Below are positions 9,895 through 13,646 of a stretch of 64,000 bases of DNA, in pieces. The stretch lies in NCBI GenBank assembly GCA_937922015.1, contig CAKZVB010000041.1:1-64000 (forward strand), written 5' to 3'. Position 1 is the first letter of the stretch. Each line of letters begins with the position of its first letter. The notes under the pieces were generated by a model, which was not told where the DNA came from, made no database searches, and saw only the letters and a list, made by a program, of their open reading frames with translations. Position numbers and translations under genes: made by a program. This DNA is from an uncultured Granulosicoccaceae bacterium. Its GTDB lineage: Bacteria; Pseudomonadota; Gammaproteobacteria; Granulosicoccales; Granulosicoccaceae.

Positions 9895-12477
9895 ATGAAA
9901 CATCTCCTCAAGCAAATAGTTTTTGCCAGCCTGTTGCTCTTTGTCTCATCGTCAGCAGCCGCACAACCGCCATGGCTGTCAAAAACGCTATCGAATGCTG
10001 ATGCGCGACACCTGATATCACGCACCGGATTCGGCGTCTCTGCCAACCAATTAAAAGCACTGCGCGGATTAAGCCGGGCACAGGCGATTGACTTCATTAT
10101 TCAAGGCTTTCGCAGCACGCCTGAGTTGCCAATGCCGGCCTGGACCGACGAGCCCGCCCCCCTTTTCTGGACACGACAGGATTTGTCGCCCGAAGAAAGA
10201 CGGCGCTTTGACCGCGAACGCGATTCAGAATTTATCGAGTTGCGTCAATGGTGGGTAAACAATCTACTTGCCACCAACTCCCCGCAAAGCGAGCGCATGG
10301 TTTTATTCTGGCACGATCACTTTGCCACCAGCTACCACAGCATTGACAGGCAATCGATTGCTCTGGCACGACAAAACCAGACATTCAGACAACAGGGCAT
10401 GGAAGATTTCAAAAAGCTTGTCAAAGCAATGATCAGAGATCCGGCACTGCTGAATTATCTGGATAACATTAGTAACCGCAAGGCAGCACCAAACGAAAAC
10501 CTCGCACGAGAACTTTTGGAATTGTTTACTCTGGGAGAGGGCAACTATGATGAACACACCGTACGGGAAGCCGCACGCAGCCTGACCGGTTACAACGTAT
10601 CTCAAAATAAAAATCTATCGTTTGAATTTCAGAGCTGGAGCCACGATAACGGCCGCAAAACGTTGTTTGGTCAATCGGCTGATTTCGATGGCGACGACCT
10701 CGTCGATAGACTGTTTCAACAACCGGCCCTTGCAAGATTTATTGCCACCAAATTCTGGCACGCATTTATCGCAGACCAGCCACCGTCAAGCGATAAGGCG
10801 GGGCACAATCCAGTAGAACAACTTGCCCGACATTTTAAGCAAAACGACTTCAACATTACCAGTCTCTATCGAGCCACACTTGAAAGCAAGGAGTTCTGGT
10901 CAGATGAATTTCGCGCCGGGCTTGTTAAGTCTCCGGCGCAACTTATCGTCGGTTTTGCACGTTCAATGGAATATCCGAAAAAAATCAACCAGCAGATTCC
11001 GTCGTTACTCGCACGCAGTGGCATGGATTTATTTGCCCCGCCCAACGTCTCCGGATGGAACGAAGGGGATGCCTGGATAACCACCGGCCGACTGTTAAAT
11101 CGTTACAACGCCATAGACAACCTGGCCATTAGCGGGAGCGACACCACCGCGGATATCGGCAATATGAATAGTATGTCTATGATAGCAACTGAAAACACCA
11201 TGACCGGCAACGGCAACCCTATGAACAACACGATGCCAACGCCTGCGTATTCAACACCGACAAGCAGCACCAATGAAAGCCGCCTGAAAGTACTGTTGGC
11301 TGCAGAAGACTACCATGGTCCGGTCAACTATAAGGTCGACTTGATTGACGCTGCTGACAACGAGTTGTGGAATAGCGGCAGACAAGAATTGGCCGGAGGC
11401 CACGACACCCGTAAGTACGGACGCCTCAGGATTCCTGAAGACTTAGCCTGGCAGACAGTTAATTTTGATATCCCTAAAACCACACTGGCTGAAGCCGCGT
11501 TGCTGCGCGTACATTATCTCAACGATAGTGCCGGGGAAGATGGCGATCGAAATATGTACGTCGACGGAATCAGCCTTGATCGCCAGTGGCTCGACAGCTC
11601 GCTGGGTCGACAGACCAGCAACTGCCCGCCAGGTGCGCTAGCCGATGCCGGCAACCTGTACTGTGCGGGCAACATAAGCCTGCCTCTTGAACAGACCCGG
11701 CTTCCTTCTGTACAGCCATCACTGGTAACTCCACAGGCGTCTTCCGTTCACATACACTGGGTTCGATGGAAAGAAAAGACGGATAAACTGGATCTCACAC
11801 TGACTCTGCAAAACTTACACACAGATAGCAGGACTTCACCTGTATTTTCGTTCCACTTGAAATCAAAGAACGGCGGTGAGCCAACACTCGAATTGAATTC
11901 CTTTGGCTGCTGGCCGGAGTGCGTTTCGCAGTGGCCGGATTGCAGTTGGACAGACCCTGACTCCCCGGATAGAAAATCAATGGTGTTTCCAATGTCCGGT
12001 GCGGCAGCAAATAAGAATTTGAAATGCCACTATGACTCCCTGACACAGACCGAAGAAAAATTGGTTTACAGCCTGATGGCAAGCGCTCCGTCCCTCTTAA
12101 AGGAAGCTGTAAGCTCACACCGGCCGATCAGGCCGGAGAAAAGACAAGCCATCGCACAATGGCAAAAGTTGTTTAAAAAATACCACAGCAAGTTAAGCAG
12201 TGGCCAATACGATTCGGCATCAGCTCCACAGATCACTATCAATAGAAAAATGAAAATCAACAAGCCTGAGCGGTGGCTGGCACAACACATTCCAGCCACT
12301 GCAAGCTCATTAGCTGAACACGGCGACAATCTGATCCGTGATGGAATTACGCTGTCTCAGCTGTTGTTGCCCGGTTTATCTGAAACCCGGTTTAAGGGCC
12401 TGGATCAACTACAGGAAAAACCAATTGCCGTACAACTGGAAGCACTGATAAATCACCCCGCTTTTCAACTCCACTAG
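9895..12477 (+). CDS. Exported DUF1800 protein with inserted CBM60-like region
   Basis: Residues 1-23 are a signal peptide. Residues 30-415 are a DUF1800 domain (ADARHLISRTGFG, WHDHFATS, NENLARELLELFTLG, PPNVSGWNEGDAWI). A Met/Asn/Thr/Ser-rich linker follows (about 423-460). Residues 464-569 resemble a small beta-sandwich with N543-D544 and D551-R-N-x-Y-V-D557, the calcium-binding pattern of CBM60/CBM36 xylan-binding modules. A Cys-containing beta-rich stretch comes next. The last 45 residues (ending LINHPAFQLH) look like the normal DUF1800 C-terminus, so the extra 400 residues are probably an insertion. The ATG at 9895 starts a good signal peptide; a TTG 24 bases earlier is less likely. DUF1800 function is unknown. 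The partner DUF1501 gene begins 8 bases after the stop. Confidence 0.85.
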   Translation: MKHLLKQIVFASLLLFVSSSAAAQPPWLSKTLSNADARHLISRTGFGVSANQLKALRGLSRAQAIDFIIQGFRSTPELPMPAWTDEPAPLFWTRQDLSPEERRRFDRERDSEFIELRQWWVNNLLATNSPQSERMVLFWHDHFATSYHSIDRQSIALARQNQTFRQQGMEDFKKLVKAMIRDPALLNYLDNISNRKAAPNENLARELLELFTLGEGNYDEHTVREAARSLTGYNVSQNKNLSFEFQSWSHDNGRKTLFGQSADFDGDDLVDRLFQQPALARFIATKFWHAFIADQPPSSDKAGHNPVEQLARHFKQNDFNITSLYRATLESKEFWSDEFRAGLVKSPAQLIVGFARSMEYPKKINQQIPSLLARSGMDLFAPPNVSGWNEGDAWITTGRLLNRYNAIDNLAISGSDTTADIGNMNSMSMIATENTMTGNGNPMNNTMPTPAYSTPTSSTNESRLKVLLAAEDYHGPVNYKVDLIDAADNELWNSGRQELAGGHDTRKYGRLRIPEDLAWQTVNFDIPKTTLAEAALLRVHYLNDSAGEDGDRNMYVDGISLDRQWLDSSLGRQTSNCPPGALADAGNLYCAGNISLPLEQTRLPSVQPSLVTPQASSVHIHWVRWKEKTDKLDLTLTLQNLHTDSRTSPVFSFHLKSKNGGEPTLELNSFGCWPECVSQWPDCSWTDPDSPDRKSMVFPMSGAAANKNLKCHYDSLTQTEEKLVYSLMASAPSLLKEAVSSHRPIRPEKRQAIAQWQKLFKKYHSKLSSGQYDSASAPQITINRKMKINKPERWLAQHIPATASSLAEHGDNLIRDGITLSQLLLPGLSETRFKGLDQLQEKPIAVQLEALINHPAFQLH

Positions 12478-12485
12478 ACTGCATT

Positions 12486-13646
12486 ATGAACCGACGTCAA
12501 CTACTACAACTACTGATAGCAGGAATCGGAATCCCTGCGGGCTTATCGGTCGTCAATGATGCATTGGCCAGCACCGGTAAACGACTGATATTAGTCGAAT
12601 TAACAGGCGCAAATGACGGCCTCAATACCCTGGTACCATTATCAGACGACAACTATCATAAAAGCAGACCCACCATTGCACTGAAGAACAATGACGTCAT
12701 TAAGCTCAATGACGATTTTTCAATTCATCAGTCGCTCAAGCCTCTTATGGAACTTTGGAATCAGGACAACATGGCATGGATACACGGGCTCGGCTACCCA
12801 TCTCCCAATCGGTCTCATTTTAAATCAATGGCGCTCTGGGAAACGGGCGGTGATGGAATTAAATCCGGCAGACAGGGATGGTTAACGCATGACATAGAAC
12901 ATCGTCTGGGGCGCAATATTATTGATGCACACGGCATCAGTCTGGCGGGTGATATGAATTTGTTTTCAAGCACTAGCGGTCACTGGCTTAGCATGACATC
13001 GCCAGAGCAGTTTCTTGCCGACAGACAACCATCAATATTAAAAACGAAGACCATGAACAAGTCCCTGCAGCTGGTCAGCCAACGCATGGAAAAACTTGAA
13101 AAATCGCTACAGGGATTATCGCGGAAACTTGAAAACACACCAAAGGTCCGTCGCCTGCCCGGAGGTAAGCTGGGTGCACAGTTGCAACAGGTGGTCAGAC
13201 TGATCAGAGCGGGTGTTGATACACCGGTATTCCGTGTTCAGCTCAGTGGTTTTGACACACACGAAAACCAGGCTTATAAACACTCTGAACTATTAGCAAC
13301 ACTTGCTAACGCCCTTGGTGCATTCGCGTCACAACTAACATTCGATGGCGAGTGGCAAAATACTCTGGTCATGAGTTACTCCGAATTTGGTCGCCGTGCC
13401 ACTGAAAATAAATCTGCCGGTACTGACCACGGTACTGCTGCACCACACTTTGTATTAGGTGGCAGTGTAAAAGGCGGACTCTATGGGACCCCTACTGATC
13501 TGGGCAACCTGGGCGAGGATGGTGATCCTGACTACACAATGGATTATCGCGCTCTGTACGATCAGGTACTAAATGGCTGGTTCGGCATAGCGCATAATTC
13601 TTTTGACGCTTATAGCGACGACAGGCTCAGGAAATTAGTTACCTAG
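12486..13646 (+). CDS. DUF1501 family exported protein
   Basis: The second gene of a DUF1800-DUF1501 pair, a common arrangement in marine and environmental bacteria. The N-terminus MNRRQLLQL followed by a hydrophobic stretch and an ALA site looks like a twin-arginine signal. The core shows the DUF1501 landmarks: LVELTGANDGLNTLVP, HGLGYPSPNRSHFKSMALWETG, FDTHENQ, and SYSEFGRRATENKSAGTDHG. The latter resembles the metal-binding region of the alkaline-phosphatase/sulfatase fold. The 386-residue length is usual. The substrate is unknown. It starts 8 bases after its neighbour's stop, so co-translation is likely and the two probably form a secreted complex or act on the same compound (inference). 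Confidence 0.88.
   Translation: MNRRQLLQLLIAGIGIPAGLSVVNDALASTGKRLILVELTGANDGLNTLVPLSDDNYHKSRPTIALKNNDVIKLNDDFSIHQSLKPLMELWNQDNMAWIHGLGYPSPNRSHFKSMALWETGGDGIKSGRQGWLTHDIEHRLGRNIIDAHGISLAGDMNLFSSTSGHWLSMTSPEQFLADRQPSILKTKTMNKSLQLVSQRMEKLEKSLQGLSRKLENTPKVRRLPGGKLGAQLQQVVRLIRAGVDTPVFRVQLSGFDTHENQAYKHSELLATLANALGAFASQLTFDGEWQNTLVMSYSEFGRRATENKSAGTDHGTAAPHFVLGGSVKGGLYGTPTDLGNLGEDGDPDYTMDYRALYDQVLNGWFGIAHNSFDAYSDDRLRKLVT

Follow-up and report, generated by a model that had tools for sequence, protein, structure and literature searches.

A CBM60-like module inserted, together with a cysteine-rich domain, into a Granulosicoccaceae DUF1800 protein that is paired with DUF1501

The DNA analysed here, referred to as the window, is a stretch of 64,000 nucleotides on contig 41 of the draft genome of an uncultured Granulosicoccaceae bacterium (332 contigs, approximately 81% complete); its close relatives among the publicly held genomes are MAGs of Granulosicoccaceae. 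The window contains an intact gene for a DUF1800 protein with a CBM60-like module, followed 8 bases after its stop codon by a gene for a DUF1501 protein. The features of the two genes are collected in the Table. Judged from the signal-peptide-like stretch at its N-terminus, the DUF1800 protein is probably exported.

Table. Features of the DUF1800-CBM60 gene and of the adjoining DUF1501 gene, in window positions.
Feature	Position	Strand	Remarks
DUF1800-CBM60 ORF	9895-12477	+	Intact, ATG start, 860 aa
Putative signal peptide, residues 1-23 (...SSSAAA)	9895..9963	+	Hydrophobic stretch from residue 8, then AAA
DUF1800 core, residues 39-415	10009..11139	+	PF08811 E 1.8e-95; model mostly helical, pLDDT mostly 80-97
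Met-rich disordered linker, residues 416-460	11140..11274	+	pLDDT <50; Met 12.0% in 22 relatives
CBM60-like beta-sandwich, residues 462-575, N543-D544 ... G550-D551-R552-N553	11278..11619	+	PF16841, AF2 + Foldseek, hhalign
Second, Cys-rich beta-domain, residues 577-699, C577, C590, C672, C676, C683	11623..11991	+	Invariant columns; strands 592-597 to 690-699
Helical segment, residues 700-770, sixth invariant Cys = C711	11992..12204	+	Helices 707-714, 718-739, 747-762, 764-768
DUF1800 C-terminal element, residues 804-860 (...LSQLLLPG...HPAFQLH)	12304..12474	+	Tail profile; similar tails in L177, L178, L180
DUF1501 partner, 386 aa, twin-arginine-type N-terminus MNRRQLLQLL	12486..13646	+	PF07394 E 1.7e-33

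The match to the DUF1800 profile spans residues 39-428 and profile positions 1-369 of 419. Most other members of the family reach approximately position 418 of the profile and have ORFs of 430-650 aa; the window protein has the core and the typical C-terminal element of the family in common with them, but the element is displaced by approximately 390 residues from the core. The element was located with a profile made from residues 795-860 of the insert-bearing family and run against 1475 ORFs from the loci of insert-free relatives. The two best matches were the extreme C-termini of DUF1800 proteins that lack the insert and belong to other phyla, first L013 (447 residues, E 1.3e-4) and then L012 (455 residues, E 2e-3). 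Three insert-free DUF1800 proteins of the same family (L177, L178, L180) end in the same manner as the window protein, and the AlphaFold2 (AF2) model places C-terminal helices at 806-859. Because the last 45 or so residues match the C-termini of insert-free proteins, the interruption is an insertion of approximately 390 residues before the DUF1800 tail rather than a loss. A preliminary description of this DNA had a DUF1800 core (to about residue 415) and a DUF1800-like last 45 residues flanking about 400 extra residues, and both profiles agree with that anatomy; of the extra residues, however, only about 115 belong to the CBM60-like module.

We used profile searches and structure prediction to identify the module. 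The Pfam CBM60 profile (PF16841) matches residues 516-568 of the window protein with an E value of 2.1e-5, a borderline score of 25.4 bits by hmmscan and 29.3 bits in the genome search as against a cut-off of 28.2. The profile also matches 18 of the 22 relatives (E<=0.01, the best at 2.9e-8), and many relatives lie above the cut-off, with up to 38.2 bits in the genome search. An AF2 model built from the alignment of 22 members had a mean pLDDT of 82.7 and a pTM of 0.83, as compared to a pLDDT of 34 for the single-sequence model of the whole protein. In the alignment-based model residues 462-575 are mostly beta, with a pLDDT mostly of 82-94. When the model was compared by Foldseek with 350,542 PDB chains, the CBM60 structures 2XHH and 2XFD took ranks 1 and 2 with a probability of 1.00, at E values of 5e-3 and 9e-3 and TM scores of 0.64 and 0.69 of the target, thus below 0.7; the query residues aligned are probably 462-575. 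Alignment of the module family by hhalign with four CBM60s of other proteins gave 97.8% (E 1e-12) over the C-terminal half. This evidence is supportive but not wholly independent, as the module family itself had retrieved two of the four and the Pfam profile the other two. When the PDB was searched by sequence alone, neither the complete protein nor the full alignment nor the module profile returned a CBM60, and another CBM60 used as a sequence query found no CBM60 structure either. The identification as CBM60, as made in the preliminary description, is thus well supported by the Pfam matches among the relatives and by the best PDB matches of the predicted model; the refuting outcome named there, a predicted fold other than a beta-sandwich, did not occur. 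The predicted beta-sandwich and the ND...DRN residues are held in common with vCBM60 (2XFD/2XHH), but that module is found on a xylanase whereas this one lies inside a DUF1800 protein and has an extra loop. The loop (GGHDT...GR), located in the N-terminal half, is specific to the family and missing from the other aligned CBM60s; within it G502 and G509 are invariant and T505 is conserved.

Conservation within the module centers on the residues expected to bind calcium. N543 is kept in 21 of 22 relatives, and D544, D551, R552 and N553 are each kept in 22 of 22. When eight CBM60s were aligned, only these five columns were the same in every sequence, those of the family sample and the other CBM60s alike. 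The ligand pattern initially proposed, N543-D544 plus D551 to D557, therefore stands for its (nearly) invariant residues but not for D557, which is an Asp in 5 of 22 relatives and a Gln, Lys or Gly in the other aligned CBM60s; on this conservation we ruled it out as a shared calcium ligand. In 2XFD the sugar is bound through a calcium ion coordinated by adjacent equatorial hydroxyls (PMC4444583), and calcium-dependent binding of beta-1,4-linked glycans (xylan, glucan) has been measured for other CBM60s (PMC4725902, PMC4444583). By analogy with 2XFD, the window module may bind a glycan by way of calcium.

The CBM60-like module is flanked by two other inserted segments. On its C-terminal side lies the Cys-rich domain, taken here as residues 577-715 (window 11623-12039), which bears the signature C-W-P-[DE]-C ... 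W-P-x-C. All six cysteines (C577, C590, C672, C676, C683, C711) are invariant (22/22), and since the protein appears to be exported this invariance suggests that they form disulfides. No Pfam family was matched by residues 591-860. On the N-terminal side lies the linker (residues 411-461, window 11125-11277), in which Met makes up 12.0% of residues among the 22 relatives, as compared to 1.8% outside it in these proteins and 1.0% in another linker that served as a control. The linker sequence drifts among relatives while its Met content stays, the Met occurring in MM, MxM and MxxM runs with almost no His. Comparable hydrophilic stretches of neighbouring proteins, used as the background for Met content, contain 0-3 Met, with one containing 5. 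From this composition a metal or oxidant role of the linker is possible. A weaker Met-rich spot was observed at the equivalent place in several DUF1800 proteins of Verrucomicrobia (L010, L011, L015).

To define the distribution of the architecture, we examined 48 genomes of the order, the 40 genomes nearest to the source genome, and a 369-genome sample of the class. The preliminary description had suggested a search for other DUF1800 proteins with the same insertion, and these were found in 30 of the 48 genomes of the order. Within the nearest 40 genomes all CBM60 matches coincide with DUF1800 loci of this kind, an assignment made from their contig positions and frame lengths. Some DUF1800 is present in 48 of the 369 class genomes, and outside the order the DUF1800-CBM60 architecture was found in just one of the 369 (G224, locus L087). 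A DUF1800 protein is also present in Caulobacter vibrioides. The source genome has two DUF1800-CBM60 copies that fall into different subclades (contigs C41 and C88), plus two DUF1800 proteins of ordinary length. In a tree of DUF1800 cores the 24 insert-bearing proteins form one group (support 91/74), consistent with an apparent single origin of the architecture. The sister of the insert-bearing clade (support 100/99) is a DUF1800 protein (L175:1541-3805, in G014) that contains the Cys-domain but lacks the CBM60 module; because of this sister, the inserted domains would seem to have been gained stepwise or to have undergone one early loss. The G224 protein (L087/L144) comes from a genome of another family and is accompanied by a DUF1501, yet is nested within the Granulosicoccaceae clade beside L066 (support 100/100), a position that makes horizontal transfer likely.

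The pairing with DUF1501 is nearly constant, the partner adjoining the DUF1800-CBM60 gene in 20 of 21 loci and missing beside the gene in G001. By its Pfam clan, DUF1501 (PF07394) is a putative member of the alkaline-phosphatase superfamily. Its invariant motifs are N43-D44, D257-T-H259, E300-F-G-R and D314-H315-G; with the D-x-H and D-H-G motifs and the putative clan membership, DUF1501 may have a catalytic, hydrolytic role. The match of DUF1501 to the Sulfatase profile was weak (E 0.15), and a PDB profile search with it returned no meaningful match. The neighbours scanned around the window copy are housekeeping genes, with no CAZyme or polysaccharide synthesis locus among them, and no evident polysaccharide-utilisation genes were seen among the neighbours conserved across the 21 loci. 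A link to a chitin synthase within the same genome was considered and rejected, as Chitin_synth_2 had no match in the source genome (approximately 81% complete). Six second-subclade loci, C88 of the source genome among them, have as the divergent neighbour of the paralogous pair a gene assigned to the CBM9_1 family from two members scanned (L125:11824-12981, L135, L137, L140, L141, L143). In one genus, paired genes for a response regulator and a histidine kinase are located near the DUF1800-CBM60 and DUF1501 genes (L129, L131, L138, L142).

Accessory extracellular domains are also present on other DUF1800 proteins. Elsewhere in the class, one protein (L162:1399-4209, in G400) has an N-terminal CBM96 (E 1.4e-22), and others combine DUF1800 with PKD and Ig domains. 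In this respect these proteins (L162, L182-L187) resemble the window protein, but theirs are N-terminal fusions whereas the window protein has an insertion before the C-terminal element. In an open library of 5.39 million papers only four name DUF1800, and the relevant passages give no function for it. According to the passages of PMC5122149 that concern them, DUF1800 and DUF1501 genes accompany bacterial chitin synthases in operons; that pair is adjacent and exported and its DUF1501 has a twin-arginine-type start, as is likewise predicted for the window pair, but it has a chitin synthase, an epimerase and an aminotransferase nearby, none of which was seen near the window pair, and those passages report no CBM. 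The PSCyt/PSD proteins of Verrucomicrobia and Planctomycetes are, like the window protein, proteins annotated without function that carry carbohydrate-binding modules (PMC5615132); theirs are LamG_3, NPCBM, CBM6 and PA14 together with cytochrome domains, none of which is in the window protein. One DUF1800 relative had a PSD1 match (E 2.7e-4). The domain architecture described here is new, while its parts are known. The view in the preliminary description that the module is a clue to the function of DUF1800 is a fair one, though related clues have been published in the relevant passages of PMC5122149 and in PMC5615132.

Sequence and prediction together show the anatomy of the protein, the CBM60 fold of the model with its motif, an apparently single origin, and the stable association with DUF1501. 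The explanation that we consider probable is that an exported DUF1800 protein gained a Cys-rich beta-domain and a CBM60-type module, and that this module tethers the DUF1800/DUF1501 pair to a glycan by way of calcium. In this model, an ancestor of the Granulosicoccaceae lineage would have acquired the Cys-rich domain and the CBM60-type lectin module between the DUF1800 core and the last helices. The module would bind its glycan through calcium, the ion being coordinated by neighbouring hydroxyls of the sugar as in 2XFD, and the flexible Met-rich linker would let it reach the ligand with the core undisturbed. Once bound, it would hold the pair at the glycan, with DUF1501, based on its alkaline-phosphatase-superfamily-like D-x-H and D-H-G motifs, as the hydrolytic partner. 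The glycan could be foreign food or the cell's own matrix. A polysaccharide, as suggested in the preliminary description, is a plausible target of the DUF1800/DUF1501 pair; indirect evidence for it comes from the CBM9_1 gene beside six paralogous loci, the CBM96 on another DUF1800 protein and the published chitin synthase operons. CBM60 modules are, however, also found at the C-terminus of subtilase-like proteases (L092, L093, L094), so that the family extends beyond enzymes of polysaccharides and the presence of the module is not by itself proof of a polysaccharide substrate. The housekeeping genes scanned around the window copy likewise speak against such a target.

A potential concern is whether the insertion could be an assembly chimera or a frame error of the MAG, given the many contigs of the draft. 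The chance of this is negligible, because independent assemblies carry the same architecture, 30 from the order and one from a different family. A variant of the glycan-holding explanation, to which we give serious though lesser credence, has the protein directed at the cell's own exopolysaccharide or envelope, in its synthesis, export or attachment, rather than at foreign polysaccharide, with the CBM60 as a matrix anchor. The association of DUF1800/DUF1501 pairs with chitin synthases, as described in passages of PMC5122149, and the lack of evident utilisation genes among the conserved neighbours are consistent with it, but no synthase lies near the pair and Chitin_synth_2 is missing from the source genome as assembled.

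The module might instead be a calcium-stabilised structural or protein-protein interaction domain that kept the CBM60 fold and calcium site but has no glycan ligand; it could, for instance, dock DUF1501 or fold back onto the Cys-rich domain. Such a role, which we regard as unlikely, would fit the occurrence of CBM60-like domains in proteins that are not polysaccharide enzymes (the subtilases and a coiled-coil protein) and the lineage-specific loop with its invariant G502 and G509 and conserved T505. It is opposed by the strict retention of the CBM60 calcium-motif residues and by the sister protein, which has the DUF1800 core and the Cys-domain without the module, indicating that the remainder of the protein can do without it. 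More doubtful still is that the chemistry is one of redox or copper, the linker binding Cu(I) or serving as an oxidant sink and the CBM bringing a redox-active protein to the glycan. Met-rich segments of other protein families bind Cu(I). The excess of Met over the rest of the proteins, its retention as the sequence drifts, the low Met counts of neighbouring hydrophilic stretches and the Met-rich spots at the equivalent place in some Verrucomicrobia DUF1800 proteins could all be taken in this sense, but the linker has no conserved spacing and almost no His, and Cu(I) binding by such segments is known from those other families only. PSCyt proteins, for their part, unite cytochrome c, PSD domains and CBMs (PMC5615132), which would accord with a redox role. 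A broader conjecture, and a rather improbable one, is that DUF1800 together with DUF1501 constitutes a metallo-enzyme system, secreted and directed at glycans, of a kind not yet described, in which different lineages independently provided DUF1800 with lectin modules (the CBM60 insertion, the CBM96 fusion, the CBM9 neighbour), with the Met-rich and possibly copper-binding hinge taking part in the mechanism.

With the CBM60-like module, a polysaccharide role for the widespread DUF1800/DUF1501 pair becomes a concrete and testable idea. That the CBM60-type module is kept in one clade with a strictly conserved motif leads to a specific test, calcium-dependent glycan binding, for which the CBM60-less sister L175 provides a natural control. 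The findings also carry a warning that a CBM60 match is not proof of a xylan enzyme. A CBM60-like module was additionally seen in a long protein with coiled-coil stretches (L088:364-2619, in G095), the architecture of which is unrelated.

Plasmids gave no match to the CBM60 module, and among the matches listed there were DUF1800 cores only. In a viral fold search the best match was a phage DUF1800 protein (BFVD A0A6J5M749), which is informative for the core only. A DUF1800-family protein is also present in an uncultured phage record (GenBank MT837425.1:5035-5709).
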